A stretch of 64,000 nucleotides of DNA, taken from the NCBI GenBank assembly GCA_944323155.1, contig CALURL010000001.1, positions 1-64,000 of the forward strand. The letters are read 5' to 3'. Source of the stretch: Candidatus Gastranaerophilales bacterium (lineage in GTDB: Bacteria; Cyanobacteriota; Vampirovibrionia; Gastranaerophilales; Gastranaerophilaceae). A program made the translations under genes and the position numbers. The notes below the pieces were generated by a model. That model was not told the origin of the DNA. It made no database searches and saw only the letters and a program-made list of their open reading frames with translations. Position 1 is the first letter of the stretch. Every line of letters begins with the position of its first letter. Below are positions 6,604 through 37,406 of this stretch, piece after piece.

Positions 6604-7422
6604 ATGAAAGAATTAATTAGAGTATTTTACGGGGGGGGGGGCACAGGCGTAAAGTCTATCGTTGCCTATTGTCAAAATAAAAACATCTGCTATAATAGTG
6701 ATGTAGTACATCTCTATTATGGGAGGCAAAATTTGATTAAATCAAAAGCTTTTACTCTAGCAGAAGTTTTAATAACTTTGGGTATTATTGGTGTCGTTGC
6801 AGCTGTAACTCTTCCGACATTAATTGCAAAATATCAAGAAATAGTCTGGTTAAATCAGTTTAAACAAACTTATTCTATATTGTCGCAAGCTTATGTTCGC
6901 GCTTCTGATGATATGGGTGGATATAGCAAAGATTGGGGACTTCCAACAACATCAAGCAAGGAGGCTTCAAAACAAATATATAATATATTTTCAAAATATT
7001 TAAAGTTTACAGGAGTAGTTAACCAGTACAAAACAATTAAAAATCTTAATGGCGAGGATAATCATAGTGCTATATTACATCCTAGTAAAGGAGATGTCTA
7101 CTCATTGAGTAACGGCACATTAATTCAGTTTGGTATTGTTGAACCAGACGCTACAGACTCATTTAATATTGGTATAAATGTTGATATTAATGGACAAAAA
7201 GGACCAAATATGCTTGGAAAAGATGTATTTATGTTATTTCCGCGTGCAGATAGGCCTATGATAACAGGCTATGATTTGTGGTGGGTTAGTGAAGGTAATT
7301 GTTCTATTCAAAATCCCGCTTCTAACTGGACTTCTGGTGGTGCTTGCGCTATTTGGGTAATTAAACATGGCAATATGGATTATCTGCATAGAGAAATATC
7401 TCATGAAGAATGGATTAAATAA
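6604..7422 (+). CDS. Prepilin-like protein with phase-variable G11 leader tract (copy 1, reads ON)
   Basis: 272 aa. The ATG follows AAAGGAG at 5 nt. After 9 codons comes G11 (6631-6641), read as Gly-Gly-Gly-Gly, then a leader of about 35 residues and the type IV prepilin motif KA|FTLAEVLITLGIIGVV, with Ala at -1 and Glu at +5. The globular part contains INGQKGPNMLGKDVF, shared with the two paralogs in this window. With 10 or 12 G the frame stops within about 25 codons. A second possible start is TTG 6733, 6 nt after GGGAGG and downstream of a promoter-like TTGTCA-N16-TATAAT, so a shorter form independent of the tract may exist. It probably forms a pseudopilin or surface fibre subunit. Confidence 0.85.
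   Translation: MKELIRVFYGGGGTGVKSIVAYCQNKNICYNSDVVHLYYGRQNLIKSKAFTLAEVLITLGIIGVVAAVTLPTLIAKYQEIVWLNQFKQTYSILSQAYVRASDDMGGYSKDWGLPTTSSKEASKQIYNIFSKYLKFTGVVNQYKTIKNLNGEDNHSAILHPSKGDVYSLSNGTLIQFGIVEPDATDSFNIGINVDINGQKGPNMLGKDVFMLFPRADRPMITGYDLWWVSEGNCSIQNPASNWTSGGACAIWVIKHGNMDYLHREISHEEWIK
6631..6641 (+). repeat. G11 homopolymer, candidate contingency tract
   Basis: Eleven G between start codon and prepilin motif. 11 is the in-frame length; 10 leads to a TAA six codons after the tract begins (GCA CAG GCG TAA), and 12 reaches a stop at TAA about 14 codons on. Confidence 0.8.
6669..6696 (+). promoter_or_regulatory. Promoter-like TTGTCA-N16-TATAAT inside the pilin leader
   Basis: -35 TTGTCA at 6669-6674 and -10 TATAAT at 6691-6696 lie upstream of a GGGAGG site and TTG 6733. 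If used, it would make a tract-independent transcript of the pilin core. Its presence inside an open frame could be chance in AT-rich DNA. Confidence 0.5.
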
Positions 7423-7431
7423 ATAAAAAAA

Positions 7432-7454
7432 AGAGGTTGAATTTTTCAACCTCT
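7432..7454. terminator. Bidirectional terminator between copy-1 pilin and the next gene
   Basis: A 10-bp stem AGAGGTTGAA / TTCAACCTCT with a 3-nt loop. An A run before it becomes the T run for the minus-strand gene ending at 7486. Confidence 0.85.
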
Positions 7455-7485
7455 ACACACACATTTGTCACACACTATTTATAAT

Positions 7486-8307
7486 TTAATGAGTTTTAGA
7501 GTCTTTGTTTGTATTGTTGCTGGTGAATGCCATTATACTTGCTGCTATACCGCCTATTGCTGCTAATACCGGTACTCTGAAAATCGCTTTTGCGATTGGT
7601 CCTTTGTTTTTCCAGATGCAGTTTGCTGTAATTGCGCTACCTACACCTATTAATGCACCACCTGTTGCATTACCTGCAATTTTCTTTGCTTGTTCCCATC
7701 TGCTAACTGGTTCGCCGGTTAATTCTGAAATGTTTTCTTCTGCTGTTTTATTATCTGCCAAACCAAATGTTAATGTTTGGAACAAACCTTGTGTGTACGA
7801 ATCTTTGCCGTGTTTTCTGATATCATCTGTCACTGACGTGTGATATAAATCGTGATATGTTTTCATCGCACGGTTTTTTATTTCTTCATAAGTTGCACCT
7901 TCGCCGTATAACTCTTTTACACTTTTTAAGTATGATTTGAACGCCGGTAATATTTGCTGCTGTTCATCCTGAGCAATTTTTTCTCTGAGAACTGTTGCAT
8001 GTTTTTCAAGACCTTCCTGTGGAGAATTTAATCTCAAATCAGCATCACGCATTCTCTGTCGTTGACGAACCTGACTGTCTATCATGAATTGGTTATACTG
8101 ATCGTAATTTTTGTAATAGTTTTGATAATTTCCACCAAAAGGCATCATATAACCCATTCCAGGGAAAATACTTCCGTTCATACCCATCATCATATTGCCA
8201 ATTGGTGAATAGAAGTCTAAGCCGCTTAAATCATTTAATGCGACCTGGTTATTATATATGTTTGGAAACATTCCGTACATACCTGCTGCCATATTGTAGC
8301 CTGACAT
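7486..8307 (-). CDS. Unknown lineage-specific protein with Met/Asn/Tyr/Gly-rich N-terminus, 273 aa
   Basis: Good GGAGG site before the ATG. Residues 1-75 are unusually rich in Met, Gly, Asn and Tyr (GNMMMGMNG, NYYKNYDQYNQF) and look disordered. Residues about 78-180 are helical and charged. Then two hydrophobic segments follow (ATGGALIGVGSAITA and VPVLAAIGGIAASIMAF) with a short polar tail, resembling a glycine-zipper pair. There is no signal peptide. I recognise no family. It has its own promoter region, shared divergently with the TPR gene at 8480. Confidence 0.7.
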   Translation of the reverse strand: MSGYNMAAGMYGMFPNIYNNQVALNDLSGLDFYSPIGNMMMGMNGSIFPGMGYMMPFGGNYQNYYKNYDQYNQFMIDSQVRQRQRMRDADLRLNSPQEGLEKHATVLREKIAQDEQQQILPAFKSYLKSVKELYGEGATYEEIKNRAMKTYHDLYHTSVTDDIRKHGKDSYTQGLFQTLTFGLADNKTAEENISELTGEPVSRWEQAKKIAGNATGGALIGVGSAITANCIWKNKGPIAKAIFRVPVLAAIGGIAASIMAFTSNNTNKDSKTH

Positions 8308-8479
8308 AACCTAACCTCCAATTTAATTTATCTAACCTTACCTTATTTATATAAACAATTTCAGTTTTTATTAATTGCTTGTTTTATAATATAATGTTAA
8401 GAGTTTGTAACATTTATCATCTAAAAAATGGTTGCATTACTTTGAAAATCAGTATATTATAAGGCTATGAGGTAAGCAA

Positions 8480-9616
8480 TTGAAAAAGTTTTTTTCAGGT
8501 TTATTTACACTTTTAATACTTGCTGCAATCGGCGGAAGCGTATATTTGTTTCCGGAATTTTATCATACTCAGTTTGATAAAATTCGTGGAATGTATTATG
8601 TGCACAAAGGCGATAAAGCATATAAAAAATGGAAATTGCAGAAAGCTATTGATTATTACCTTCGCGCTGTAAAATTATATCCTGGCCACTATACTGCATG
8701 GTATAATCTTGGAAATATTTACGTTGCTTATGAAGATTATTACTCTGCTGTTGATGCTTATGAACAGGCAATCAGGTTTAATCCTAAATTTATGGTTGCA
8801 AGAATGAATTACGGTATAATTTCAACAGAAAAACTCGGTGATTTTGACGGGGCTATTGATCAATATAATGCAATTATTAATGTGAAAAGAAGATTGCTAT
8901 CCATTCCTTTTATATTTAATAATAGAAGGAGTACAAAAACTAATCGAGGCCTTGCGTATTATAATATGGGAGTTGCTTATAAGCAAAAATCAGTTTATAG
9001 CGGTGATGAGTGGGACATCAAAAGAATTTATCTTTTAAAAGCCCTTGATGCGTATGAAAATGCTGTTAAAATTCTCAAAAAAGATTATGATGCGAGATAT
9101 AATCTTGCGCTGACTTATCATTTGCTAGGGAATTATCATGAAGCAGGGATGAATTACTGTAAGGCAATTGAACTTTCTCCTATGCAATATGAAGCACACT
9201 ATAATTTAGCAATTCTTTTAAGACATTTGAAATACTATAAAGAATCTCTTGATGAACTTGAAAAAGCAACCAGTTTAATTACTAACAGCGACGGTGCTAC
9301 TAATCGTCAAATGTATGTTTTTGATGTTATGAATGATGTCACAAGAACAATTCTTGCCGGTACTGATTCCAAAACGCTCGTTGAGGAGTTGAATGAAATT
9401 ACTCCTAAAGATGAATCAGGCAGTGTAACATATGTCCATGGCAAACTCGTTGCAACTGAAGAATTAGACAATGCAATTATAAAAAATTTCAGTACATGCG
9501 CTTCTGCAAAAATATTTGAAGAAGATATTGAAGAAGGAATTACAGATGTCAGTGATTTTGAACGTGACACCGTACGTATTCCGCCTGTTGATGAGTTTAG
9601 TGAAGTTACCCCTTAA
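8480..9616 (+). CDS. Membrane-anchored TPR-repeat protein, 378 aa
   Basis: TTG start 6 nt after GAGGT; no nearby ATG gives the full signal-anchor. Residues 1-22 form a membrane segment (FFSGLFTLLILAAIGG). Tetratricopeptide repeats follow from about 40 to 260, with typical A-W-Y-N-L-G-N-I and A-I-D-Y-Y-L-R-A patterns (AWYNLGNIYVAYEDYYSAV, ARYNLALTYHLLGNYHEAG). The last 100 residues are acidic and non-repeat. It probably scaffolds a protein complex at the membrane face; partners are unknown. Its end overlaps the convergent ABC permease gene by 11 nt. Confidence 0.85.
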   Translation: MKKFFSGLFTLLILAAIGGSVYLFPEFYHTQFDKIRGMYYVHKGDKAYKKWKLQKAIDYYLRAVKLYPGHYTAWYNLGNIYVAYEDYYSAVDAYEQAIRFNPKFMVARMNYGIISTEKLGDFDGAIDQYNAIINVKRRLLSIPFIFNNRRSTKTNRGLAYYNMGVAYKQKSVYSGDEWDIKRIYLLKALDAYENAVKILKKDYDARYNLALTYHLLGNYHEAGMNYCKAIELSPMQYEAHYNLAILLRHLKYYKESLDELEKATSLITNSDGATNRQMYVFDVMNDVTRTILAGTDSKTLVEELNEITPKDESGSVTYVHGKLVATEELDNAIIKNFSTCASAKIFEEDIEEGITDVSDFERDTVRIPPVDEFSEVTP

Positions 9617-10451
9617 CAGCTCCTTCGTTTTCTCCCGATATAAAGTACCTTTGCATTGCAAGGAAAAATATTAAGATTGGAATTGTTGAAAGAATTGAAC
9701 CTGCAGCAATAAATCTCCAGTTAGAACTGAACATTCCCTGTAAGTTATTAACACCTACAGGAAGCGTGTACATTGTTTCTTTGGTAAGTACAATGCTCGG
9801 CCATAAGAATTCTCCCCATGAACCAATGAAAGTAAAAATCGCAAGTACTGCTAAAGACGGTTTTACCATAGGGATTAAGACTTTTGTAAATACCTGAAAA
9901 ACATTGCACCCGTCAACAATTGCAGCCTCTTCCATTTCTTTAGGAATTCCCAAAAACGCCTGACGCATAAGAAATATTCCAAAAGCGCTTACTGCAAATG
10001 GCATTATAAGCCCGATAAAGCCAGCAATATCATTTACGCTGTCAACAAGGTGTAATTTTAAAGTTATAAGATACACAGGTAACATAATTGCCTGAAACGG
10101 AATCATTATTGTTGCAAGTATTGCAAAAAATGTGATTTTTTTACCCTTAAACTCCATTCTCGCAAGCGGATATCCAGCCATTGCAGATAGAACAAGGTTT
10201 AATAAAACAGTTCCACCCGCAACAACCATGCTGTTTACAAAATATCTGATAAAGTCAACTTTATCCCAAACTCCTGAATAATTTGCCCAGGTAAAATCTG
10301 CGGGTATAATTTGCGGCGGATAGGCAAAAATATTTTCACTATTTCCCTTGAGTGATGTAGAAATTAGCCAGATAAAAGGAAATATTGACAGCAGTGAAAC
10401 AAATATCAATATTGCATGTGTTGTAAATTTTTCTATAAATTTCCTTATCAT
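9606..10451 (-). CDS. Carbohydrate ABC transporter permease, MalG/UgpE type
   Basis: 281 aa with six predicted transmembrane helices. The EAA loop that docks the ATPase is clear (EEAAIVDGCNVFQVFTKVLIP, about residues 175-195), and TSLKG at about residue 33 is typical of the MalG branch. It works with the MalF-type permease encoded just upstream; the two genes overlap by 4 nt (ATGA). No solute-binding protein or ATPase is adjacent, so the substrate, a sugar or glycerol-phosphate-like compound, cannot be read from context. Confidence 0.9.
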   Translation of the reverse strand: MIRKFIEKFTTHAILIFVSLLSIFPFIWLISTSLKGNSENIFAYPPQIIPADFTWANYSGVWDKVDFIRYFVNSMVVAGGTVLLNLVLSAMAGYPLARMEFKGKKITFFAILATIMIPFQAIMLPVYLITLKLHLVDSVNDIAGFIGLIMPFAVSAFGIFLMRQAFLGIPKEMEEAAIVDGCNVFQVFTKVLIPMVKPSLAVLAIFTFIGSWGEFLWPSIVLTKETMYTLPVGVNNLQGMFSSNWRFIAAGSILSTIPILIFFLAMQRYFISGENEGAVKG

Positions 10452-11320
10452 ATCTGGTACTTGTTCCTTTCAAATCCAAAAATGTTAACAAGTGAAAATA
10501 ACATTACTATTATCAAAAGCACAACCGCCATTGCTGATGCAAATCCTAAATCAAGATTCTCAAATGCTCTTTCATAAATGTAATAAACTATGGTTTTGCT
10601 GGAATTCAGTGGCCCGCCTTTTGTCATAACATAAATTTCTGCAAAAACTTTCATTGCAGATATTGCGCTAATTGTGGTAACAAGTGCAATAGTAGGCATT
10701 ATATGCGGTACGGTTACTGTTAGGTGTTTTGTTAGAAAATTTGCACCGTCAATATCGCAGGCTTCGTATAGTTCTTTTGGAACACTCATTAACGCCGCAA
10801 GATAGATTATCATGTAATAACCAATCCCTTTCCAGATTGTTACAATAATTACCGAATACAAAGCGTATTTAGGATCTGTAAGCCAGCCTATGGGCTTAAA
10901 ACCTAAACTTGTTACTATGTAATTTAAGATTCCCTGATCAGCATAAAGCCATTTGAACGCTATAGCAGCAACTACTATCGAAACAATTACAGGTAAATAA
11001 ATTAGAATTTTGTATAAAGTAACGCCTCTGATTTTCTGATTAATAAGTATTGCAAGAAACAGTGGAAATATCGCAAGTATAGGAACTGCAACAAAAAGAT
11101 ATATGAATGTATTCCATAGAACTTTATAAAAAATTGCACTATGGAAGAGTTTTGTATAATTTTGCCACCCTATAAATTGCGGGTTGTAAATGCTTGATGA
11201 GTAGTCAAAAAAGCTTAGGCCGAATGTTTGAAAAAATGGGATAAAAAAGAATATCAGCAGAACAACTCCCGCCGGAAGTAAAAATAAGTATGGTGCATAT
11301 TTGCCATAATACTTAAACAT
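10448..11320 (-). CDS. Carbohydrate ABC transporter permease, MalF/UgpA type
   Basis: 290 aa, six transmembrane helices, typical LFLLPAGVVLLIFFFIPF first helix and the EAA loop YEACDIDGANFLTKHLTVTVP at about residues 195-215. It is the first gene of a two-permease unit and overlaps the MalG-type gene by 4 nt. A multi-sugar ATPase of the MsmX/UgpC kind encoded elsewhere probably energises the pair. The start at 11320 is 39 nt from the Usp gene on the same strand, so the three genes could be co-transcribed. Confidence 0.9.
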   Translation of the reverse strand: MFKYYGKYAPYLFLLPAGVVLLIFFFIPFFQTFGLSFFDYSSSIYNPQFIGWQNYTKLFHSAIFYKVLWNTFIYLFVAVPILAIFPLFLAILINQKIRGVTLYKILIYLPVIVSIVVAAIAFKWLYADQGILNYIVTSLGFKPIGWLTDPKYALYSVIIVTIWKGIGYYMIIYLAALMSVPKELYEACDIDGANFLTKHLTVTVPHIMPTIALVTTISAISAMKVFAEIYVMTKGGPLNSSKTIVYYIYERAFENLDLGFASAMAVVLLIIVMLFSLVNIFGFERNKYQI

Positions 11321-11359
11321 ATAGTGATTATTACATTTAATTCTTACGCAGTCAATTTT

Positions 11360-12220
11360 TTAACTTTCCTTGATAATTAAAACATCACTTTTCGCGTTTT
11401 CAAGAATTCGTCGGCTGATTGAACCGCTTAGGAATTTATCCATTTTACTCTTTTTTCGTTCTCCTATAACAACCAAATCTATTTCTCTTGCTTTTATAAA
11501 ATCGAGAATTTTTTGAGTAGGATTTCCTGAGAGTATTGCATTTTCCAAACTTTTTAAACCGTTTTCTTCAAGAATTGATTCTATTGTTTTTAAGGCTTTT
11601 GCCGCAAATATATTTTGCTGTTTTTCTATCTCAAGAAGCCAGTTAGTATCAAGTGTTCCTTCTAAAAATAACAAATCAGGATCTTCATTTACGGTGCAGG
11701 TATATATTTCCTTGTCTTCTATGCATAGATGATTTATTGCTTGTCTAATCACCTCATAAGAATACGCTGAACCATCTGTTGTTAATAAAATTTTTCTTTT
11801 AGCATTTTCTTCTTTGGTGACATAAGCATTATTTTTGCTGCTGTTTACAACTTCCTGTGATACTGAACCGAGCCATTTTTGTATTCCTTTTTTCCCGTGT
11901 GAACCCATAAGTACAACGTCATAATATTCGGATTTTAGCTGCTCTATGATACTATCCATTGCAGAACCGCAGTGTTTTATTTTTCTTCCTAAATTCATAT
12001 TTAATGATTTAATTTCTTTTTCTGCATAATCGAGAATGCTGTCAGCAACATTTGCGCAGGAATTTGCAAATCCATCCTCTTCAATGCTCACTTCATCAGG
12101 TAAAAATGTCCAGTCGATTATACAAATTACATCAATTATTGCTTCTTTCTGCCACCCTGAAAAATTTTTTAGTGCTTTAAAACTTATTTTAGAACCATCC
12201 GTACAAAATAACGCTTTCAT
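11360..12220 (-). CDS. Tandem universal stress protein (two UspA domains)
   Basis: 286 aa made of two UspA folds, residues 1-140 and 150-286. Each begins with a beta strand and an acidic TDGS loop (ALFCTDGSK, ILLTTDGSA). Each ends with a nucleotide-binding glycine motif: MGSHGKKGIQKWLGSVS in the first and IGERKKSKMDKFLSGSIS in the second, both near the ATP-binding G-2x-G-9x-G(S/T) pattern. UspA proteins bind ATP and help survival under starvation or redox stress. It lies upstream of the two sugar permeases. Confidence 0.9.
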   Translation of the reverse strand: MKALFCTDGSKISFKALKNFSGWQKEAIIDVICIIDWTFLPDEVSIEEDGFANSCANVADSILDYAEKEIKSLNMNLGRKIKHCGSAMDSIIEQLKSEYYDVVLMGSHGKKGIQKWLGSVSQEVVNSSKNNAYVTKEENAKRKILLTTDGSAYSYEVIRQAINHLCIEDKEIYTCTVNEDPDLLFLEGTLDTNWLLEIEKQQNIFAAKALKTIESILEENGLKSLENAILSGNPTQKILDFIKAREIDLVVIGERKKSKMDKFLSGSISRRILENAKSDVLIIKES

Positions 12221-12358
12221 ATTCTCTCCTTTTCTTGTTTTTACAAAGAATAAAATATGTTAAGGAAAATTACATTAGCTGGTATTCTATATTTTTTTTT
12301 GTTATTATGTTGATGTGGGAAATGTTTTTATATTGAATAGGATAAAAGTGTTATAGTT

Positions 12359-12979
12359 ATGCCGGCAAAAGATAATGTTCAACAAAAAGTTAATTTAAGG
12401 GATTACAAAGAATTAATTGAAACTATTGCAAAAGTAGAGTATCAAAAATTTTCCACTTCTCACCTGATAGAATTACCTGAATTGGTTAATATCGGGAATC
12501 ACACACTTTATATTCTGTTTAAAAATAATTCTCCGGAAAATTTTAATAACACATATCTTTCGACTGCAATCAAATGGGCTATAAGAAATGAAGTTAGACG
12601 CCGTTATAAGTGGTATACTTTGAAAAACAGACGTCAGCAGACTTCTGATGAAGAGAACAATGACTTGAGGGTAGAAGTTTACAAAACAATTCTTTCAATA
12701 GATGAAATGCAAGAGGCTGAAGTTCCTACTCAGATTAAGGCAGAAGATAGAACTCCGGAAGAATGCATTGAACTGTCTGAACTCAAGGCAGAAATTCTTG
12801 AATCTATGAAAAAGCTTCCGCCACGTGAAAGAGAACTTATTGAATATAAGTTTTTTAAGGAGAAAAAGCTGCGTGAAATTTCAGAAGAATTCAATATTTC
12901 ACAATCAAGAATTTCGCGCATAATTCAATCAGGTTTGGACAAAATTAAAAGAGACTTAAAAAAGCAGGGGATAATTTAG
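12359..12979 (+). CDS. RNA polymerase sigma factor, sigma-70 family (SigF/FliA-like)
   Basis: 206 aa. Region 2 is recognisable at about residues 62-82 (NNTYLSTAIKWAIRNEVRRR, a -10 recognition helix like that of FliA/SigF). Region 4 is clear at the end (LPPRERELIEYKFF...REISEEFNISQSRISRIIQ), a helix-turn-helix that reads the -35 box. Region 1.1 is absent. It is an alternative sigma factor of moderate size. No anti-sigma gene is beside it; gcvPB starts 6 nt after its stop, so the two are probably co-transcribed by proximity. There is no strong ribosome-binding site. Confidence 0.85.
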   Translation: MPAKDNVQQKVNLRDYKELIETIAKVEYQKFSTSHLIELPELVNIGNHTLYILFKNNSPENFNNTYLSTAIKWAIRNEVRRRYKWYTLKNRRQQTSDEENNDLRVEVYKTILSIDEMQEAEVPTQIKAEDRTPEECIELSELKAEILESMKKLPPRERELIEYKFFKEKKLREISEEFNISQSRISRIIQSGLDKIKRDLKKQGII

Positions 12980-12985
12980 ATAAAT

Positions 12986-14410
12986 ATGAAAACTATTTTT
13001 GAAAAAAGCAACGGCGTTTCAGGGATAAATTTGTCTGATGAGACTGAAAATTTGTCTTTTTTTGACGAAAAATTTTTGAGAAAATCTCCTGTTAATCTTC
13101 CTCAGTTAAGTGAGTTAGAAGTTTTGAGACATTATAAAGAACTTTCAGATAAAAATTTCTGCATTGAAAAAGGTTTTTATCCTTTAGGTTCCTGCACTAT
13201 GAAATATAACCCAAAAGTTAATGAACTTCTGGGCAATCTGGAAGGTTTTACGTGCCTTCATCCTCTGGCTGACGATGAAGATTGTCAGGGCGCACTGGAG
13301 TTAATGTATAAATTGCAGGAAGCATTAAAAGAAGTTACCGGCATGGATGCTGTAACTTTACAGCCTGCTGCAGGTGCTCATGGCGAACTTACCGGCATGA
13401 TGATTATCAAAAAGTATTTTGAGGTTAAAGGTGAAAAACGAACTAAGGTTATAATTCCAGATTCTGCGCATGGTACAAATCCAGCAAGTGCTCATGCGTG
13501 CGGCTTTGATATAGTTCATGTTGCTTCCAATGAAAAAGGGCAGGTTGATGTTGAGGCTTTAAAATCTTTATTGAATGACGATGTTGCTGCAATTATGATG
13601 ACTAACCCGAATACACTTGGTATTTTTGAGGAAAATGTTCTTGAAATTTCTGATTTAATGCATAAAAACGGCTCATTACTTTATTATGATGGTGCGAATT
13701 TCAATGCTGTTATGGGATATACTAATCCAAAATTAATGGGATTTGATGTTGTTCATTTAAACCTGCACAAAACATTTGCAACTCCTCATGGAGGCGGCGG
13801 CCCGGGAGCTGGTCCTGTTGCGGTTGTTGAAGCCTTAAAAGAGTTTTTACCTGTGCCTGTAGTAGATTTTAACGGTAAAAAATATTTCAGAAAATATAAT
13901 CTTTCTCATTCTATCGGTAATGTCAAAGGTTTTTATGGAAATTTTTCCGTACTTGTGAAGGCTTATGCGTATATTCTTATGATGGGTAAAAATCTTAAGC
14001 GTGCAAGCGAAGATGCTGTGCTTAATGCTAATTATCTCAAGGAAAAATTAAAAGAGGCATATTTATTGCCATATGATGAACCTTGTATGCATGAATTTGT
14101 GCTTTCAGGCGACAAGCAAAAAGAAAACGGGGTTTCAACATTAAATATTGCTAAAAGTCTTATGGATGAAAATACTCATCCTCCAACAGTTTATTTCCCA
14201 TTAATCGTGCATGAAGCAATCATGATTGAACCTACCGAGTCTGAAAATAAAGAAAGATTAGACGATTTTGTAAACGTGATGTTAAAAATTGCGCAGGATG
14301 CAAAAACAAACCCTGAAAAATTGATTTCAGCTCCTCATACTACACCGGTTAAACGTGTTGATGAGACTAATGCTGCGCGTCATCCGGATTTAAAATTTAT
14401 TCAACAGTAA
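12986..14410 (+). CDS. gcvPB: Glycine dehydrogenase (decarboxylating) subunit 2
   Basis: 474 aa, the C-terminal half of the P protein, which uses PLP to decarboxylate glycine and pass the aminomethyl group to the lipoyl H protein. The PLP lysine is in NLHKTFATPHGGGGPGAGP at about residue 255. The N-terminal part has the usual GFYPLGSCTMKYNP. Split gcvPA/gcvPB genes are usual in Firmicutes and several other phyla. No gcvPA, gcvH or gcvT is in the window, so the system is dispersed. It starts 6 nt after the sigma gene. Confidence 0.95.
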   Translation: MKTIFEKSNGVSGINLSDETENLSFFDEKFLRKSPVNLPQLSELEVLRHYKELSDKNFCIEKGFYPLGSCTMKYNPKVNELLGNLEGFTCLHPLADDEDCQGALELMYKLQEALKEVTGMDAVTLQPAAGAHGELTGMMIIKKYFEVKGEKRTKVIIPDSAHGTNPASAHACGFDIVHVASNEKGQVDVEALKSLLNDDVAAIMMTNPNTLGIFEENVLEISDLMHKNGSLLYYDGANFNAVMGYTNPKLMGFDVVHLNLHKTFATPHGGGGPGAGPVAVVEALKEFLPVPVVDFNGKKYFRKYNLSHSIGNVKGFYGNFSVLVKAYAYILMMGKNLKRASEDAVLNANYLKEKLKEAYLLPYDEPCMHEFVLSGDKQKENGVSTLNIAKSLMDENTHPPTVYFPLIVHEAIMIEPTESENKERLDDFVNVMLKIAQDAKTNPEKLISAPHTTPVKRVDETNAARHPDLKFIQQ

Positions 14411-14451
14411 AAGTAAAAAGTACAATCAAGTAAAAAAAAAGAGAAACTGAC

Positions 14452-15603: not shown

Positions 15604-15648
15604 TATTTACTCTATTTAATATTTTAATTATTGAGGTAATGTACATAT

Positions 15649-17431: not shown

Positions 17432-17435
17432 GGTT

Positions 17436-18401: not shown

Positions 18402-18469
18402 AACAACTCCTTAGACACAGGATAAAGTTGAACATAATGAAAAACTATTCTACGGAATTGTTATTTAAA

Positions 18470-18504: not shown

Positions 18505-18542
18505 AGTGTATAGTCTAAATTTTTATTGCCTGAAAGTCTTAA

Positions 18543-24861: not shown

Positions 24862-24881
24862 AAAATTATTATATATTATTT

Positions 24882-25937: not shown

Positions 25938-26003
25938 AGTTGTATTTTACATAAAAATTTGATATATTAAAAGTCGTAGTAAAGTATTTTTAGGAGAGTT
26001 ATT

Positions 26004-26663: not shown

Positions 26664-26736
26664 CAGAATTAGCCAAAATTTCTATTGCCCTTAACTTTCT
26701 ATGATGATATAATTAGTACGATAGAAATGAGGCATT

Positions 26737-28604: not shown

Positions 28605-28622
28605 GTGAATATAAAAAATTGC

Positions 28623-29678
28623 CTATTTTACTCTGGAGAAAACTTCAACATTCACATCATCAAAAGTGTTAGTGTTGAAATACGCACATGACGCGACCAT
28701 TGCAGCGTTATCCGTACAGTACTTCATTGGAGGTGCAAAAACTTCATAGCCTTCATCTTTGAGGGCAAATATTTTCTTTCTAATTTCAGAATTAGCGGCA
28801 ACTCCGCCTGCTATTACAACCTGTTTGTAGCCGCTTTCAGCAAGTGCATTTTTTAGTTTGTGCAAAAGGGTTGAAGAAACAGTTTCCTGAAAACTTGCAC
28901 AAATGTCATTTACAGGTAATTCTTTCCCATCAAAAGATTTTACTAGTCTAAGCACTGCTGTCTTAAGCCCGCTAAAGCTGAAATTATATCCATCAACTTT
29001 TGCTTCCGGAAGTTTAAATGCAAAAGGATTTCCTTCCTGCGCAAGTTTGTCAAGTCTTGGCCCTCCAGGGTATGGCAAGCCTATTAGTCTTGCAACTTTA
29101 TCATAAGCTTCTCCGACAGCATCGTCTATTGTTTCACCTATAATTTCCTGTTCAGAATAGGATTTTACATCAATTATCTGTGTGTGACCGCCGCTTACAA
29201 GTAAAGCCATAAATGGCGGTTTTAATTCTGTATCTATGTAGTTTCCGCAAAGATGTGCATTAAGATGGTTTACTCCTATAAAAGGCTTGTCATAAGTTAA
29301 TGCGAGAGTTTTAGCTGCATTTAACCCTACAAGCAGGCATCCGACAAGTCCGGGGCCTACTGTTCCTGCAAAGGCTGTTATGTCTTGAGGAGTAAGATTT
29401 GCGTTTTCTTTGGCCTGTTTAAAAGCTTCTTCTATAACTATATTTATGGAATCTAAGTGTTCTCTAGCAGCAATTTCAGGGATTACTCCGCCAAATTGTG
29501 CGTGAGTTTTAATTTGAGATGCTACAACATTTGCAATAACTTCACGTCCGTTTTTAACGATTGCACAGGCTGTCTCATCGCAGCTTGATTCTATTGCCAT
29601 TATATAATTGTCATATCCGCTTTCAACGCCTATTTCAACAGGCTCTTTTGAGAACAATTTATTTTTTATATTTTTCAT
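28623..29678 (-). CDS. tsaD: tRNA N6-threonylcarbamoyladenosine transferase TsaD
   Basis: 351 aa. With TsaB and TsaE it transfers the threonylcarbamoyl group to A37 of tRNAs reading ANN codons. The ASKHA fold starts at MAIESSCDETA; the metal site HLNAHLCG near residue 135 is present, with VSGGHTQI and GGVAANSEIR motifs. I start at ATG 29678. The open frame begins at a TTG six codons up, but those bases form a TATAAT -10 box, so the transcript would be almost leaderless. An N-terminal extension of about 28 residues precedes the usual start. It is divergent from obgE. Confidence 0.95.
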   Translation of the reverse strand: MKNIKNKLFSKEPVEIGVESGYDNYIMAIESSCDETACAIVKNGREVIANVVASQIKTHAQFGGVIPEIAAREHLDSINIVIEEAFKQAKENANLTPQDITAFAGTVGPGLVGCLLVGLNAAKTLALTYDKPFIGVNHLNAHLCGNYIDTELKPPFMALLVSGGHTQIIDVKSYSEQEIIGETIDDAVGEAYDKVARLIGLPYPGGPRLDKLAQEGNPFAFKLPEAKVDGYNFSFSGLKTAVLRLVKSFDGKELPVNDICASFQETVSSTLLHKLKNALAESGYKQVVIAGGVAANSEIRKKIFALKDEGYEVFAPPMKYCTDNAAMVASCAYFNTNTFDDVNVEVFSRVK

Positions 29679-29719
29679 AGTATTATTATAATACAAATAG
29701 AAAATTAGGGATTATAAAA

Positions 29720-31003
29720 ATGAAGTTTATAGATAAATCAAAAATAAGAGTAGTATCAGGCCGTGGCGGCAATGGTATGGTTGCCTGGCGCCGAGAAAAA
29801 TATGTTGATAAAGGCGGCCCTGCAGGGGGTGACGGCGGCCGAGGCGGTGATATTTATCTTATTGCTGATGAAAATATGTCAACTTTGATGGATTTTAAGC
29901 ATAAATCTGTTTTCAAGGCTGAAAGCGGCGAAAATGGCGGTATTAAAAATATGCACGGTGCCTGCGCAAAAGATTTATACATAAAAGTTCCGCTCGGAAC
30001 CGTTGTAAGGGATGTAAAATCAGGAAATATTATTGCAGATTTAACAAGCCACGAGCAGAAAGCTCTTGTCGCCAAAGGCGGCCGTGGAGGCAGAGGTAAT
30101 GCAAGATTTGCAACTGCGCAAAAACGTGCGCCTCAATTTTGCGAGCCGGGAGAGCCTGGAATTGAAAGAGAATTGTTTTTAGAATTGAAACTTATAGCTG
30201 ATGTGGGTTTGCTCGGGATGCCGAATGCTGGAAAATCAACCTTGATAAGCCGCATAAGTTCTGCAAAGCCTAAAATTGCAGACTATCCATTTACTACAAT
30301 TATTCCTAATTTAGGTGTTGTTAAAAAACGTTCAGGTGATGGTTATGTTGTAGCAGATATTCCTGGGTTGATTGAAGGCGCTTCAGAAGGTGTCGGTTTA
30401 GGGCATGATTTTCTTCGTCATGTCGAACGCTGCCGCTTTCTTGTTCATCTGGTTGATTCTACTGAAAAAAATCCTTTTGAAAACTACAAGATTATTAATA
30501 AAGAACTTGAAAAGCATTCCGAGCATCTGGCTAATCTTTATCAAATTGTTGTTTTGAATAAAATTGATTCAGTCGATGAAAAAAGGCGTCAGGAGCTCTA
30601 TGAACTCTTTAAAAAGGAAACATCGGATGTGTTTCTAATTTCTGCTGTCACAGGTGAAAATCTTGATAAACTTTTAGATTTCATGGGACAAAAAGTTGAT
30701 GAAATTCCAAAGGTTGAATCTCAAATTGTTGTTGAAGAGGACTTGGATGCTTATAATAATGATGACAGCAGTTTCGAAGTTTATAAGGTTGCAAAAGACA
30801 CCTTCATTGTTCAAGGCGGCAAAATTGGCAGACTTGCAAGTGTTACTGATGAAAGAAATTCTGAGCAGGTTATAAGGCTTCAAAACATTCTAAAAAGCAT
30901 GGGTGTTTTTGATGTCTTGACTAAGAAAGGAATTAAAGACGGTGATACGATTATTATCGGGCAACTAGAATTCGTATTTTATTCAGATGAAATATATGGA
31001 TAA
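29720..31003 (+). CDS. obgE: GTPase Obg
   Basis: 427 aa with the full Obg arrangement. The glycine-rich Obg fold (about 1-158) contains GRGGNGMVAWRREKYVDKGG. The G domain (about 160-330) has GMPNAGKST (P-loop), DYPFTTI (switch I), DIPGLIEGA and NKID. A C-terminal OCT domain follows. Obg helps assemble the 50S subunit and links ribosome state to stringent response and division. It is divergent from tsaD and has a weak AGGG site. Confidence 0.95.
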   Translation: MKFIDKSKIRVVSGRGGNGMVAWRREKYVDKGGPAGGDGGRGGDIYLIADENMSTLMDFKHKSVFKAESGENGGIKNMHGACAKDLYIKVPLGTVVRDVKSGNIIADLTSHEQKALVAKGGRGGRGNARFATAQKRAPQFCEPGEPGIERELFLELKLIADVGLLGMPNAGKSTLISRISSAKPKIADYPFTTIIPNLGVVKKRSGDGYVVADIPGLIEGASEGVGLGHDFLRHVERCRFLVHLVDSTEKNPFENYKIINKELEKHSEHLANLYQIVVLNKIDSVDEKRRQELYELFKKETSDVFLISAVTGENLDKLLDFMGQKVDEIPKVESQIVVEEDLDAYNNDDSSFEVYKVAKDTFIVQGGKIGRLASVTDERNSEQVIRLQNILKSMGVFDVLTKKGIKDGDTIIIGQLEFVFYSDEIYG

Positions 31004-31005
31004 AG

Positions 31006-31034
31006 TTGCAAATTCATAAAAAATTTTATATAAT
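31006..31034 (+). promoter_or_regulatory. Promoter of the copy-2 pilin gene
   Basis: TTGCAA (31006-31011), 17 nt, TATAAT (31029-31034). It is close to consensus; the AAGGAG site and ATG follow within 40 nt. It starts inside the obgE tail. Confidence 0.75.
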
Positions 31035-31069
31035 TAGAAATGTAATATTTATTGAAGGAGATTTATGTT

Positions 31070-31857
31070 ATGAAAAAAGCATTTAGAGTAGCTCACGGGG
31101 GGGGGGCAAGCGCGTAGAGCGCGTTTTTGCCCTTTATAATAAATTTGCCTTTACCCTTGCGGAAGTTTTGGTTACTTTAGGAATTATTGGTGTAGTTTCG
31201 GCCATGACTATTCCAACTCTGATGAATCAGACAAATGGTAAAGAATTGCAAGCCGGATTTAAAGAAGCTTATTCAATTTTGAGTCAGGCAGTAGTTTCTG
31301 TCCAAAATGAATCTATGCCTGGTATGAGAAAGTTCTATGCTACTCAAACTAGTTCTGGTGATTATCCTAATGCAAATGAGATATTACAAAAAATTTATTC
31401 AAAATTAAAAATTGTAGGTAAGTGCGAATATAAATCACCTGTTAGAACCTACAATAAAAAAATTGAAAATCCAATGATAGATCGTGGTAAAGCTGAACCA
31501 GATAAAGCTCTAGCAAATGGTATGTGTTTTAATGCATACGTTAATGCCTTACAGATTAATTTGTCCATAGATGTAAACGGGACAAAGGGCCCGAATGTTT
31601 TAGGCCATGATATTTTCTTTTTTGAGATTGATGACAATGATACCCTCCAACCTAAGCACTCTGAAGATGTCTGGACTGATGAAGAAATAGAAGATATGTA
31701 CGGTGATGATCCTGATAATGCTTACGGTGCTCAAGCAGGTGACCCATGCAGCGTAAAATCTAATCAAAAAGGAAACGGTTTAGGCTGCGCTTACTGGGCA
31801 ATGATTGATAAAAATCCTGATGATAATTCTAAAGGATATTGGGAATCTTTGCCATAG
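31070..31857 (+). CDS. Prepilin-like protein with phase-variable G tract (copy 2, reads OFF)
   Basis: ATG 31070 follows AAGGAG. The frame runs 8 codons into a tract of 10 G (31097-31106) and stops at a TAG 15 codons after the start. One extra G restores a full 262-residue frame: leader, then A|FTLAEVLVTLGIIGVVSAM and a globular domain with VNGTKGPNVLGHDIF, matching the other two copies. With 12 G the frame stops soon too. No start codon lies between the tract and the pilin motif other than a TTG inside it at 31168. It is therefore a silent phase variant, or a homopolymer miscall in the assembly. A good promoter precedes it. Confidence 0.8.
31097..31106 (+). repeat. G10 homopolymer, candidate contingency tract
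   Basis: Ten G are followed by CAAGCGCG. Ten leads to a stop; eleven restores the pilin frame. Confidence 0.8.
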
Positions 31858-31878
31858 TTGCTTGATTTTAAGTTTATT

Positions 31879-31909
31879 AAGCGTGAAGTCTGATTTAGAT
31901 TTCACGCTT
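31879..31909 (+). terminator. Hairpin terminator after copy-2 pilin
   Basis: A 9-bp stem AAGCGTGAA / TTCACGCTT with a further short stem inside. The T run is short. Confidence 0.6.
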
Positions 31910-32009
31910 GTTATTTGCATTTTTATGCTGTTATAAAGCCCTCTTGTATTTGATTTATGTTCTTGATAAAATTTAGCCATTGTAATAACACTATAGAGGG
32001 GATATAAAT

Positions 32010-33536
32010 ATGACAAAAAGAGTACTTTTATGTATTATGGACGGCTGGGGCATTAGTAAAGCTCATCCGGAATATGATGCGACAAAATTAGCAAATCCTG
32101 TTCATGTAAATAAGTTAGAGCAGGAAGAAAAATTTATAAAAATTCACGCTGATGGTGAATATGTTGGACTTCCTGCAGGCCAAATGGGGAACAGTGAAGT
32201 CGGCCATTTAAACCTTGGAGCTGGAAGAGTTGTTTATCAAGAACTTTCTAAGATAAATAATTCTATTAAAACAGGTGATTTCTTTAAAAGAAAAGCTTTT
32301 TTAGATGCAATTGAACATGTAAAAAAATGCGATAGCGCGCTTCATATTTATGGTTTGGCTTCAGACGGCGGTGTTCACTCTGCTTTAGGGCATATTCTTG
32401 CTTTAATTAAGCTTGCCGCAGATAATGGTTTGAAAAAAGTTTATGTACATGCTTTTCTTGATGGACGCGACACTCCGCCGCAAAGCGCTATGACTTTTTT
32501 ACAGCCAATTGAAGATGAATTAAAAAAATACGGGCTTCCTCCGATTGCAACTATTTCTGGAAGATATTATGCAATGGATAGAGACAATCGCTGGGATAGA
32601 ATTGAAAAAGCTTATGATGCATTACTGCTAGGTGAAGGAGAACATGCTTCTTCTGCTAAGGAAGGCGTTGAAAAGTCATATGCAAAAGGCGACAACGATG
32701 AATTTGTTCTCCCAACTGTTATTGGCGGTGAAGAATCAAGAATTCATGACAATGATGCGATTATTTTCTGGAACTTCCGTCCGGATAGAGCTCGTGAGTT
32801 AACTAAGGCTATTAATTTTGAAAAATTTGACGGTTTTGAAAGAAAAGTAATAAGAAAAAATATTTTTTACGTTTGCATGACTGAATATGATGAAACTTTC
32901 ACTTTTCCTGTAGCATTCGGAAAAGAAAGAATGGTTAATATTCTAGGTGATGTTCTGGAAGCTAACGGTATTAAACAATTCCGTACTGCAGAAACTGAAA
33001 AATATGCCCATGTAACCTTCTTCTTTAACGGAGGAGTTGAAGAACCGCAGCCTCATGAAACACGTGTTCTTGTTCCTTCTCCAAAAGTCGCAACCTATGA
33101 TTTGCAGCCTGAAATGAGTGCTAAAGAAGTTTGTGAAAAAGTTCTTGGTGCAATTGAAAATCCTGAATACGGATTTATTCTTGTTAACTTTGCGAACCCT
33201 GATATGGTTGGACATACTGGTGTTCTTGAAGCAGCAGTTAAGGCTGACAAAGTCGTTGATGAGTGTGTTGGTAAAATTGCCGATGCCTGCAAGGAGCATG
33301 GTATTGTTATGTTGTTGACCGCTGACCATGGTAATTCTGAAGTTATGGTTAATTACGAAACAGGCAAGCCAATGACTGCTCACACAACAAATGAAGTTCC
33401 ATTTGTACTTATCAATGCTCCAAAAGGTGTTGAACTAAAAGAGACTGGTGCTTTATGTAATATTGCACCGACAATTCTTCAACTGCTCGGTATTCCAAAA
33501 CCGGCTGAGATGGATTGCGATTCTTTGATTAAATAA
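32010..33536 (+). CDS. gpmI: 2,3-bisphosphoglycerate-independent phosphoglycerate mutase
   Basis: 508 aa. It interconverts 3- and 2-phosphoglycerate in glycolysis with two Mn ions. The alkaline-phosphatase-like metal and Ser sites are clear: IMDGWG near residue 9, GNSEVGH with the phosphorylated Ser near 61, FLDGRDTPP near 150, RPDRAREL near 262 and the TADHGNSE and MTAHTTNEVPF region near 440-460. A GAGGGG site lies 9 nt before the ATG. It is single-gene, with its own start and a palindrome after it. Confidence 0.96.
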   Translation: MTKRVLLCIMDGWGISKAHPEYDATKLANPVHVNKLEQEEKFIKIHADGEYVGLPAGQMGNSEVGHLNLGAGRVVYQELSKINNSIKTGDFFKRKAFLDAIEHVKKCDSALHIYGLASDGGVHSALGHILALIKLAADNGLKKVYVHAFLDGRDTPPQSAMTFLQPIEDELKKYGLPPIATISGRYYAMDRDNRWDRIEKAYDALLLGEGEHASSAKEGVEKSYAKGDNDEFVLPTVIGGEESRIHDNDAIIFWNFRPDRARELTKAINFEKFDGFERKVIRKNIFYVCMTEYDETFTFPVAFGKERMVNILGDVLEANGIKQFRTAETEKYAHVTFFFNGGVEEPQPHETRVLVPSPKVATYDLQPEMSAKEVCEKVLGAIENPEYGFILVNFANPDMVGHTGVLEAAVKADKVVDECVGKIADACKEHGIVMLLTADHGNSEVMVNYETGKPMTAHTTNEVPFVLINAPKGVELKETGALCNIAPTILQLLGIPKPAEMDCDSLIK

Positions 33537-33542
33537 GGTTTG

Positions 33543-33583
33543 GTCATTCCAGGGGACGGAGCAATCCTAATCCTTGGAATGAC
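33543..33583. repeat. Palindromic repeat element after gpmI
   Basis: A 9-bp inverted repeat GTCATTCCA / TGGAATGAC encloses 23 nt. No long T run follows, so it may be an intergenic dispersed repeat and not a plain terminator. Confidence 0.55.
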
Positions 33584-33631
33584 TTCTTTTAAAAACTTAT
33601 AGTTGTTTTTAGATTAAGTAGGATAATTATT

Positions 33632-36601
33632 ATGGTTGATAATAAACTTTTTGATATAGATTTTTCTTTCAAAAAAAATAATGTAGATGAATTATTTTTT
33701 AACCTTTCTGAAAATCCAGAAGGATTTAAAAATAAAGATTTTCGCTATACATTGAGTTTAATATATCAGACTGTTGAGGATGAGTTTGCTGGTGTTTTCT
33801 TAAGCCCGCATACTCCTGCAAGAAATACAAACTTTTTTCTTGTTAATAATAATGACAAATTATCTTTTTTTGTTACTCCTACTAATAATTTTGAGTATTA
33901 CTTAAAGTCAAAAGGTTCGCTTTTTAGATTTAAATCTCAAGTTCTCGGCAATGAAGTCGGTTATGCTATGAGTCTTGACCTTGTTATGGATTATTTTGGC
34001 GGGTTTGGAAACATTATTGATATAGAGGCTCTGACCCCGACTTTTATATATATGAACAAGCTTACATATTTTGTTATGAAGCTTATTGAAAAACTTTATT
34101 TTATTCCTACTGTTAAGAAAAAAAATCAGATGTTCAAAATTGTTTATGAACCGATTATTAATTCACAACAGTTGGCTCGAATTATCAATCAGTTTGAAGA
34201 AAATATGCCAGAAAATCTTTTTATACAAGGCGATATACCTAAAAATTTTGTCACGGATTTTATTTACAACTATTTGAACTATGTTATATATAAATTTTTA
34301 GGAATTAAGGCTTATAAGTTCAAGGATGTGAAATCTGGCACTTATATGATAAAAGATTTGGAACAGCGTTCTGTAATGCGCGGAGTAGATATTGCAGAGA
34401 ACTTTTCACAGTGGTTTGACGAACTGTATCTTGGTAAATACGATGTTATTCCGTTCTTTAAAATTGACAGAATTGAGGATGAATTATTTAGACTTAAGGT
34501 TCATATCAAAAATAGAAAAACCGGTGAAGATGTTCTAATTGATAAGCTTTATACCGATGAAGAAGTTTTTGGCGCAAGTTCTTCTGATATTGCGCGAATT
34601 GTTGAAAAACAATTGAATTATGCAACGCGTTATATGCCGGAACTTGAGGAACTTTTTGAAGATGAAGATAAGCTTGCTCTTGATTTGAACTTGAATGAAA
34701 TTTATAAGATAATTACTCAAACTGCCTATTATCTTCAAAAAGCACAGATTGATGTTGTTCTGCCGCCTGAACTTGTTAATATTGTTGTTCCCCGTGCTTC
34801 AATTAATGCAAAAGTCAAAGCGTCCAGATCTAAAGAATTAACTGATATTTTCAATAATACATCAGCTTCTAAAATTTCACTTGATGATATTATGGATTTC
34901 TCTTATGAAATTGCTATTGGAAATGATAAATTATCAATTGAAGAATTCAATAAACTTGTTGAAGGGCATAACGGGCTTATCAAGTATAAAAATAAATATG
35001 TTCTTATTGATCAGGACGACACTAAAAAATTGTTCGAACAAATTGCTAAAGCAAACTTTAAATCTATGTCACGTATGGAATTAATTCATGCAGCGATGTC
35101 AGGTCAAATTGACCAGTATGATTTTGACTATGATGATGCTTTTGCAAAAATTATTCAGGATTTCAATAAGCCTGTGGAAGTTACTCCGCCTGCCCAATTA
35201 AAAGGAGAGTTAAGACCATATCAAATGACTGGTCTCAAATGGCTTTGGACGAATATTTCAAAAGGTTTTGGCGCTTGTATGGCTGATGATATGGGATTAG
35301 GTAAAACAATTCAGGTTATTAGTCTTATCTTAAAAATGAAAGAGGAAGGAAAACTTGATAAACCTGTTCTTGTAATTTGCCCGACAACGCTTATGGGGAA
35401 CTGGATGAAGGAATTACAAATGTTTGCGCCTTCTTTAGATGCTGTTATCTACCATGGCGCAGAAAGAAAGCTTGATATTAAACATGATGTAATCCTTACT
35501 ACTTATGCAATTATGAGGATTGATGTTGAAGAGTTGAAAAAGCACGTATGGGGAATGATTATTGTTGATGAAGCTCAGAATATAAAAAATCCTGATACAG
35601 CCCAGACTCTTGCAATTAAAATGTTAAAATCTGATACAAAAATTGCAATGACAGGTACGCCTGTGGAAAATAGATTAACTGAATTGTGGAGTATATTTGA
35701 TTTTATTAACCACGGTTACCTTGGAACCCTTAAAGAATTTCAAAAAAGCTATGCAATTCCAATAGAAAGATTTAAAGAAAACTCTCGAGCAGCAAAATTG
35801 AAAATGTCTGTTTCTCCATTTGTTTTAAGACGTTTGAAAACAGATAAGCATGTAATTTCAGATCTTCCTGAAAAAATGGTAATTAATGATTACTGTTATC
35901 TATCTAAACCTCAAGCTGTTCTATATGAAAAAACATTAAATGAAATGATGGATAAAATTTCGGGATTCACTGGTATAAATAGACGCGGTAATATTTTCAA
36001 ACTTATTACAGCGCTTAAGCAGATTTGTAACCATCCTTATCAGTTCTTAAAGGGCGGTGAGATGAGTAAAGAGCTTTCCGGCAAAATGGACAAATGTATT
36101 TCTACTGTGCAAAGTATTCTTGACAATGGTGAAAAAACGCTTATATTTACCCAGTATAAAGAAATGGGTGATATATTATGCAAAGTTCTTGCAGATGAGT
36201 GTAATACGGAACCTTTGTTCTTCCATGGCTCATTAACTGTTCCGCAGCGTGAAGATTTGATTAATAAATTCCAGAACGAAGATGATTATAAAGTTATGAT
36301 ACTTTCACTGAAAGCAGGCGGTACAGGTTTGAACTTAACGAGTGCAACAAACGTAATTCATTATGATTTGTGGTGGAACCCTGCTGTTGAGGATCAAGCA
36401 ACTGATAGAACTTACCGTATAGGACAGGATAAGAATGTAATGGTTCATAGAATGATTACGCTTGGTACATTTGAAGAAAAAATTGACGAAATGTTAAAAG
36501 CCAAAAAAGAACTTGCTGACTTGGCTGTTTACGAAGGTGAAAAGATTATTACAGAGCTTTCTGACGAAGAAATTTATCAAATCTTTACTCTGTCAGCCTA
36601 A
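33632..36601 (+). CDS. SNF2-family DNA-dependent ATPase (DEAD/DEAH-type), 989 aa
   Basis: A long bacterial Swi2/Snf2 ATPase. The first about 520 residues have no recognised motif and probably hold a large helical/beta accessory domain. The ATPase core follows: MADDMGLGKTIQ (motif I, near 550), VDEAQNIKN (motif II DEAQ, near 645), MTGTPVENR (motif III), then the helicase C-domain with LIFTQYKEM, SLKAGGTGLNLTSA and QATDRTYRIGQ. It moves along double-stranded DNA without unwinding. The role in bacteria is generally unclear (RapA-like recycling or chromosome or defence roles). No methylase or restriction genes lie nearby. ATG with an AGGA site. Confidence 0.93.
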   Translation: MVDNKLFDIDFSFKKNNVDELFFNLSENPEGFKNKDFRYTLSLIYQTVEDEFAGVFLSPHTPARNTNFFLVNNNDKLSFFVTPTNNFEYYLKSKGSLFRFKSQVLGNEVGYAMSLDLVMDYFGGFGNIIDIEALTPTFIYMNKLTYFVMKLIEKLYFIPTVKKKNQMFKIVYEPIINSQQLARIINQFEENMPENLFIQGDIPKNFVTDFIYNYLNYVIYKFLGIKAYKFKDVKSGTYMIKDLEQRSVMRGVDIAENFSQWFDELYLGKYDVIPFFKIDRIEDELFRLKVHIKNRKTGEDVLIDKLYTDEEVFGASSSDIARIVEKQLNYATRYMPELEELFEDEDKLALDLNLNEIYKIITQTAYYLQKAQIDVVLPPELVNIVVPRASINAKVKASRSKELTDIFNNTSASKISLDDIMDFSYEIAIGNDKLSIEEFNKLVEGHNGLIKYKNKYVLIDQDDTKKLFEQIAKANFKSMSRMELIHAAMSGQIDQYDFDYDDAFAKIIQDFNKPVEVTPPAQLKGELRPYQMTGLKWLWTNISKGFGACMADDMGLGKTIQVISLILKMKEEGKLDKPVLVICPTTLMGNWMKELQMFAPSLDAVIYHGAERKLDIKHDVILTTYAIMRIDVEELKKHVWGMIIVDEAQNIKNPDTAQTLAIKMLKSDTKIAMTGTPVENRLTELWSIFDFINHGYLGTLKEFQKSYAIPIERFKENSRAAKLKMSVSPFVLRRLKTDKHVISDLPEKMVINDYCYLSKPQAVLYEKTLNEMMDKISGFTGINRRGNIFKLITALKQICNHPYQFLKGGEMSKELSGKMDKCISTVQSILDNGEKTLIFTQYKEMGDILCKVLADECNTEPLFFHGSLTVPQREDLINKFQNEDDYKVMILSLKAGGTGLNLTSATNVIHYDLWWNPAVEDQATDRTYRIGQDKNVMVHRMITLGTFEEKIDEMLKAKKELADLAVYEGEKIITELSDEEIYQIFTLSA

Positions 36602-36608
36602 ATCTGAA

Positions 36609-37406
36609 TTATTCAAATTTCCCTATTGTGTAATTTTCTGTTTCTATAAGTTTGTCATGTGATAATACATATTCTAAATTTCCTGTCTCATCAGAATTTG
36701 ACCAGGGCTTTTGGGCTGTGTATCCTATCGTAAAATAATCATGTCCTATCTGATTTGGGCCTTTTTTTCCATTTGTATCTATACCTATATAGCCGCATGT
36801 TATTCCTGTCTCGTATTTACCTTTGTAACCTGTTGGGCTGGAGTCATCTTTAATATAATTTCCATTTGAATCTACTTCAGGTTGAAAAAATGTGTATGTG
36901 CAGCTTCCGTTTTGTACTTGAGAAACTATTGATATAAAACTTCCATCTGCAAGGACTGCTCTATTCCAATTTTGCATTTCAACTATATCGGTATTGCCAT
37001 GTCCGTCATTTTTTTTCTTAGCCTTTTTGACCTGGTATGTTCCACCGCAATTATTGAAATTTTTATATGTACAAACATCTGTTGCATTTAAAACAGTTGC
37101 TAATTCTTTTAGTAGGTCATCAGCATTGTCATGATATGTCCAAAAATATTCATAATTACCTACTATTCCATTTTGGGAATTCCACATATAGACTGCATTT
37201 GTAACTGTACTATAACTTTTTTTAGCCGCAGTAATCAGAACTTTTTCTCTATAATTTGCAATAAGCGTTGGCAATGTTAACGCCGCAACAACTCCTATAA
37301 TCCCTAGTGTAATTAAAACTTCAGCAAGTGTAAAAGCCCTTAACCCCCTGTAATTTAAGCAACTTGCGGGGGGGGGGGCAAGCCGCGCATTTTTATTTTT
37401 AAGCAT
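36609..37406 (-). CDS. Prepilin-like protein with phase-variable C tract (copy 3, reads ON)
   Basis: 265 aa. ATG 37406 follows AGGAGG at 5 nt. Ten codons on comes C11 in the coding strand (37368-37378 on the plus strand read G11), encoding Ala-Pro-Pro-Pro, then RA|FTLAEVLITLGIIGVVAAL and a globular part with TNGKKGPNQIGHDYF. Removing one C leads to TAA within about 12 nt; adding one leads to TGA after about 16 codons. The tract and the flank CAAGCCGCG match those at copy 2 but in reverse relative to the gene. A Cys pair lies in the globular part. It has a promoter TTGACA-N17-AATAAT. Confidence 0.87.
   Translation of the reverse strand: MLKNKNARLAPPPASCLNYRGLRAFTLAEVLITLGIIGVVAALTLPTLIANYREKVLITAAKKSYSTVTNAVYMWNSQNGIVGNYEYFWTYHDNADDLLKELATVLNATDVCTYKNFNNCGGTYQVKKAKKKNDGHGNTDIVEMQNWNRAVLADGSFISIVSQVQNGSCTYTFFQPEVDSNGNYIKDDSSPTGYKGKYETGITCGYIGIDTNGKKGPNQIGHDYFTIGYTAQKPWSNSDETGNLEYVLSHDKLIETENYTIGKFE
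37368..37378 (-). repeat. C11 (G11 on plus strand) homopolymer, candidate contingency tract
   Basis: Flanked on the plus strand by CTTGC and CAAG, a small inverted pair. Eleven is in frame; 10 and 12 stop. Confidence 0.8.

Follow-up and report, generated by a model that had tools for sequence, protein, structure and literature searches.

Why should three prepilin-like genes on one stretch of bacterial DNA each carry a long run of G or C between the start codon and the pilin? The window analyzed here, a stretch of 64,000 nt, belongs to a non-photosynthetic gut member of the Cyanobacteriota from the Gastranaerophilales, a group of widespread and largely uncultured gut bacteria. A first-pass annotation had described a common layout for the three genes, and all three are found where it placed them. 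Gene 1 (6604..7422, + strand) has its ATG at 6604 and a long leader; a G11 tract (6631..6641) lies 27 nt past the ATG and puts it in frame with FTLAEVLITLGIIGVV. Gene 2 (31070..31857, + strand; ATG at 31070) carries a G10 tract (31097..31106) that leaves the frame off by one, reading MKKAFRVAHGGGASA up to a zero-frame stop at 31115-31117. Gene 3 (36609..37406, − strand; ATG at 37406) is of a C-type: its tract at 37368..37378 is G11 on the + strand and C11 in the coding strand, and the gene is in frame. The G-run of gene 3 therefore lies on the same (leading) strand as those of genes 1 and 2. For each of the three, the proposal that only a tract length (n) of 8, 11 or 14 joins the ATG to the pilin holds, as does the view that long G-runs are improbable by chance: runs of at least 8 G are expected 0.05 times per window under dinucleotide shuffling, with a maximum of 2 in 100 shuffles, and the window has 13 overlapping matches in four places. 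The fourth place is a G9 at 3037-3045, apparently non-coding and without a link to pilins.

The layout is not confined to the window. The genome from which the window derives (G000; 1.79 Mb in 34 contigs, 99.7% complete) has 93 runs of at least 8 G, and at least 71 of these are located 25-33 nt past an ATG (mostly 27 or 30), directly ahead of a prepilin motif and downstream of a ribosome site that is usually of GGAG type. Searching the whole genome for the prepilin motif after a G/C run of 8 or more thus extends the set from the three genes originally noted to at least 71, which rules out the three as a special trio or a chance occurrence. The length that joins the ATG to the pilin is 2 mod 3 (n = 8, 11, 14) in 69 of the 71 genes. 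By this arithmetic 58 genes are one base short, 10 are in frame and three are one base long, and a change of a single base in the homopolymer toggles the frame. Two types of leader are found, a G-type in 63 genes (ATG...CAC-G10-CA(C/A)..., read in the zero frame as M-KNLFR..HGGGAQA followed by a stop) and a C-type in eight (ATG...-C10-, translating, for example, as MLNREDLRVCPPP...); two more genes are C-type by their flanks. An exact-motif search for FTLAEVL(I/V)TLG returns 74 sites, several of them without a tract. 

The genuine start could instead lie downstream of the tract, as the first-pass annotation had allowed. No in-frame start codon is present there in 51 of the 71 genes, which rules out a downstream start as a general account for these 51. 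An in-frame start with a ribosome-like site occurs between the tract and F+1, the first residue of the mature pilin, in six genes. Gene 1 of the window is one of the six: a candidate alternative start, TTG at 6733..6735 (+ strand), is in frame six codons ahead of F+1 and follows a Shine-Dalgarno-like GGGAGG at 6721-6726. Expression of gene 1 from this TTG may be independent of its tract.

The encoded proteins have the marks of type IV pilins. Across 58 aligned paralogues F1, T2, L3 and E5 of the prepilin cleavage and methylation motif are invariant, and a motif, DxNGxKGPNxxGxDxF, is conserved in the globular domain. In profile searches gene 1 scores above the cut-off for both N_methyl (PF07963) and TIGR02532, gene 3 passes TIGR02532 only, and the truncated form of gene 2 passes neither. 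The fold model of the mature part of gene 2 (F+1 onward, 31150..31854, + strand) predicts a helix at residues 3-54 followed by a beta-rich domain (mean pLDDT 81.7), that is, the long N-terminal helix and globular domain of type IV pilins. The N-terminal helix matches PDB chains of GspG, PilA and geopilin by profile (E 5e-5 to 7e-4); the whole-pilin model, unlike these proteins, finds no significant match among PDB folds (best E 4.5) and has its own globular motif. Candidates for the assembly machinery are also present in G000: a PilB-like assembly ATPase, which scores best with TIGR02538 but under the equivalog cut-off of that model; a PilT retraction ATPase above cut-off; and a weak prepilin peptidase candidate with Peptidase_A24 over cut-off. 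The latter, the sole prepilin-peptidase match of the genome (C6:49789-50187), lies within ~400 bases of a C-type pilin tract (C6:50521).

Near-identical copies of these genes differ in tract length. In the relative G073, the leader of L392, which is in frame with n = 11, is identical to that of L393, which is off with n = 10, and the two genes share 99% identity over the 110 nt past the tract. The congener G001 has an equivalent pair: L356 has n = 11 and is in frame, L357 has n = 10 and is off, and the 110 nt past the tract are identical. Other paralogues of G001 that are more than 90% alike (L134/L142/L146) display n = 9, 10, 11 and 12. Two tracts on contig C5 of G000, at 53880 (n = 12) and 54753 (n = 10), have an identical upstream flank, and two species, G347 and G374, share flanks around a G10 plus an A in one case and a G9 in the other. 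In these comparisons of paralogues, tract length changes faster than the flanks. The switched-off state does not appear to be accompanied by decay: the ORFs past the tract are full length, with a median mature length of 233 aa in off genes and 238 aa in on genes (four off genes are short), and pairs of off genes have a median dN/dS of 0.21 (28 pairs). Judged by their sequences, the off genes stay intact and in this sense alive.

We consider it probable that these genes form a slipped-strand, off-by-default repertoire of phase-variable pilins. Each gene would follow one plan: its own ribosome site and ATG, 8-11 codons, the G-run (a C-run in genes on the lagging strand), the prepilin cleavage motif and the globular domain. 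Slippage in replication would alter the run by one base. At the usual G000 length of 10, reading would hit a stop a few codons past the run and yield no pilin; gain of one base, to 11, would restore the frame, and the type IV pilin then made would have a leader that is unusually long and contains glycine or proline. With a set of ~70, individual cells within a clone would differ in which few pilins they display. We infer that runs slip while cells grow, that the state of a tract governs expression, and that varying the surface is of advantage with respect to host immunity, phage or attachment.

The tract lengths are more uniform than fast switching would predict. Intact mismatch repair should slow slippage, and both mutS1 and mutL are intact in G000, which rules out the loss of mismatch repair as a cause. 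Intact mismatch repair together with very uniform lengths suggests slow switching, or else strong selection or homogenization at one length. Two relatives, G004 and G023, have no full mutL match and a mutS1 match only below the cut-off; mismatch-repair loss inside the family is possible in these two genomes.

Many dispersed intact copies, of which few are in frame, with tract and flank sequence common to the copies, might also constitute a silent archive, in which off genes are recombination donors to a few expressed loci in the manner of Neisseria pilS and the tracts either silence the genes or serve as recombination sites. A guanine-rich DNA element is located upstream of gonococcal pilE, and the poly-G beside the pilin genes recalls it; Neisseria pilE/pilS likewise combines a large reservoir of pilin variants with guanine-rich DNA near pilin genes. 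The pilS copies, however, are silent and partial, lack promoters and starts, and act through gene conversion, whereas those described here are complete genes, each with its own Shine-Dalgarno site and ATG, and no expression locus is seen. Most paralogues share about 22-34% identity with the reference pilin, which would make them poor conversion substrates, and the in-frame genes of G000 are scattered over many subfamilies rather than gathered at one locus. A silent archive appears quite improbable against this evidence.

The layout recurs among relatives. The pattern is present in 35 of the 386 genomes of the phylum that were scanned, all of them from the family of the window genome, and in none of the ~210 genomes outside this family, while a reversed-pattern control gave zero in every genome of the scan. 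With a looser pattern, two further cases turn up in G043, a genome from another family of the order. Congener G001 scores zero at the narrow spacing yet has tracts with longer leaders, so that the distribution counts are lower bounds. The first-pass annotation had allowed that close relatives might lack the tract, but both congeners carry it. When named genomes were scanned for a prepilin motif with a G-run 16-46 nt ahead of it, there were at least 112 matches. Of the matches listed, those that bear a lineage name all come from bins of Candidatus Gastranaerophilales, Melainabacteria, Scatousia or Cyanobacteria, except for Fusobacterium sp. CAG:439, which looks misnamed. Viral contigs, searched as a source of allelic variants, gave no matches.

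The off state predominates in these relatives as well. Over 39 genomes, 34 of 237 scored genes are in frame where one third are expected (p = 4.6e-11, a value that is only a guide, as the scored genes are related), and off is the commonest state in 12 of the 13 genomes with at least four scored genes. Each lineage has its own modal tract length, from which the genes of a genome rarely depart, all sequences being single assembled genomes, mostly metagenome bins, and hence a population consensus. The mode is 8 in G009, 10 in G000, CALUVV and CAG439, and 11 in DVIU, MOYD and G149, while G347/G374 are among several genomes with a mode of 9; runs in the groups with modes of 8 to 10 are one short of the frame, and those in the group with a mode of 11 are one long. 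By our reading, n = 10 accounts for 61 of the 63 matched strings listed for G108.

This uniformity within genomes would agree with programmed recoding, whereby a −1 ribosome shift or RNA polymerase slippage would express all n = 10 genes weakly and steadily, the uniform length being itself the functional one. G-runs and C-runs are both plausible slippery sequences, and the off genes are intact and conserved. The direction of the required shift, however, is not conserved: the default run is one short of frame in G000, CALUVV, CAG439 and G009, and one long in DVIU, MOYD and G149, so that one ribosomal shift direction cannot serve both. In-frame n = 11 alleles beside n = 10 copies of nearly the same sequence also speak against recoding, as does the tract orientation, which tracks replication and not transcription. 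Some non-pilin ORFs of G000 read straight through runs of 10 or 11 within an open frame (for example C2 502, C6 70204, C9 39847 and C24 8252), and n = 10 alone is thus no recoding signal. These runs suggest a genome-wide set-point of length, with the register of each gene presumably fixing its default state. On balance, recoding is an unlikely explanation.

All of the data are assemblies, and contigs of some relatives end at tracts, as might be expected from a homopolymer assembly artefact. Contigs of G009 and G149 often start or end at a tract, which indicates that the repeated leader breaks assemblies; the runs listed for G009 number 37 on the + strand and 3 on the − strand. An artefact would nevertheless have to produce the same layout in assemblies of many laboratories, with lineage-specific lengths, a fixed required frame and a reversed-pattern control of zero, and we regard it as extremely improbable.

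The tracts show a further regularity, which concerns replication. Runs in G000 are strand-coherent along contigs, and in all 71 scored pilin tracts the G's are on the strand where GC skew is positive, taken as the replication-leading strand. This strand bears the 63 G-type genes, and the opposite one bears the eight C-type genes. Skew computed on short pieces left seven apparent exceptions, on contigs of near-zero skew, which were resolved by the sign obtained with the near-full sequence of those four contigs. Random assignment would give 71 of 71 about once in 1e10, a figure that paralogy makes less extreme. Among named relatives, 77 of 79 tracts at clearly skewed loci agree with the rule, in a test that is weaker because the strand of the genes themselves contributes to skew. 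Outside the window, at 124-130 kb of contig 1 (C1), GC skew and G-run strand switch, and this is likely the replication terminus.

Viewed on the leading strand, C-type tracts carry the flanks of G-type genes, with a matrix score of 10.2 versus −17.5 in coding orientation and −21.5 for background. By our own reading of the alignments, C-type genes of G001 and G002 have TTTC-G10-CGATT or CACT, as in the G-type genes of their genus. Extended homology between C-type and inverted G-type leaders was considered and rejected: similarity is clear only over ~6 nt ahead of the run and ~11 nt past it, and farther out is not clearly above shuffles. Since the same flanks occur in both reading directions, beyond what coding would constrain, some cause at the DNA level is required. 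Candidates for it are a tract stability that depends on orientation, the binding of a factor, and conversion between tracts.

The 71 of 71 agreement and the conservation of flanks in either gene orientation could mean that the main role of the G-run is as a polarity motif for replication or segregation (FtsK-orienting or Chi-like) and that it occurs in pilin leaders by happenstance. Such a motif would be expected across intergenic and unrelated coding DNA, whereas at least 71 of the 93 runs occupy one position of one gene family, and this makes it very improbable. A different possibility, tentative and somewhat doubtful, is that the tract with ~10 flanking bases is a DNA element, and that a polarity-restricted process keeps it in one orientation to the fork and at one length in scores of loci, for example gene conversion by single-stranded DNA that anneals to the lagging-strand template. 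It would jointly explain the uniform length within genomes, the leading-strand rule in both orientations and the lineage-specific flanks common to G- and C-type genes, and would make the tract a length-regulated switch element rather than a passively slipping repeat. The strand rule also provides a natural experiment on why long G-runs survive in one fork orientation only.

The slipped-strand switch favored here is of a known kind, though very large and oddly constrained. A close parallel is Neisseria pilC1/pilC2, where a G/C homopolymer within the reading frame, with a range given as 9-20 (PMC5953494), sets a gene of type IV pilus function on or off by frame. PilC, however, is pilus-associated and not a pilin and is encoded by one or two genes, whereas here the pilins themselves carry the tract, in ~70 copies. 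The phasomes of Campylobacter, Helicobacter and Neisseria also consist of poly-G contingency loci of ~8-12 nt, the modal poly-G being 9 in pathogenic Neisseria and 10 in N. lactamica (PMC5953494). They comprise many surface genes that are unrelated to one another, whereas the present set is dominated by a single paralogous family in which nearly all copies have the same required frame and are off by default. The earlier proposal of a candidate phase-variable pilin family is backed by the genome-wide set, its recurrence in the family, the length differences between near-identical copies and the intact off genes; the size of the set, its off-by-default state and the replication-strand rule go beyond that proposal. 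We found no report in the open-access literature of phase variation in the order Gastranaerophilales, nor of phase-variable pilins in Gastranaerophilales, Melainabacteria or Vampirovibrionia. If the reading is correct, the set may rank among the largest known groups of phase-variable surface genes drawn from a single family, and the tracts allow a direct read-level test of surface variation in the gut.

A few long G-runs of G000 lie in other contexts. Three are located within other ORFs, L047 (C3:19079, G14), L038 (C2:502, G10) and L068 (C6:70204, G11), which are candidates for further phase-variable genes; the ORFs at C3:19079 and C6:70204 are glycosyltransferase-like by eye. At L049 (C3:80576) a G8 directly precedes an ORF that resembles a LysR-type regulator by eye, and is possibly a promoter or start-region tract. 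Five loci (L057, L064, L078, L082 and L094) display a second leader family with the same tract, and their long ORFs past the motif (FTLSEV or FTLAEMM, 280-670 codons) probably encode large pilin-like proteins.
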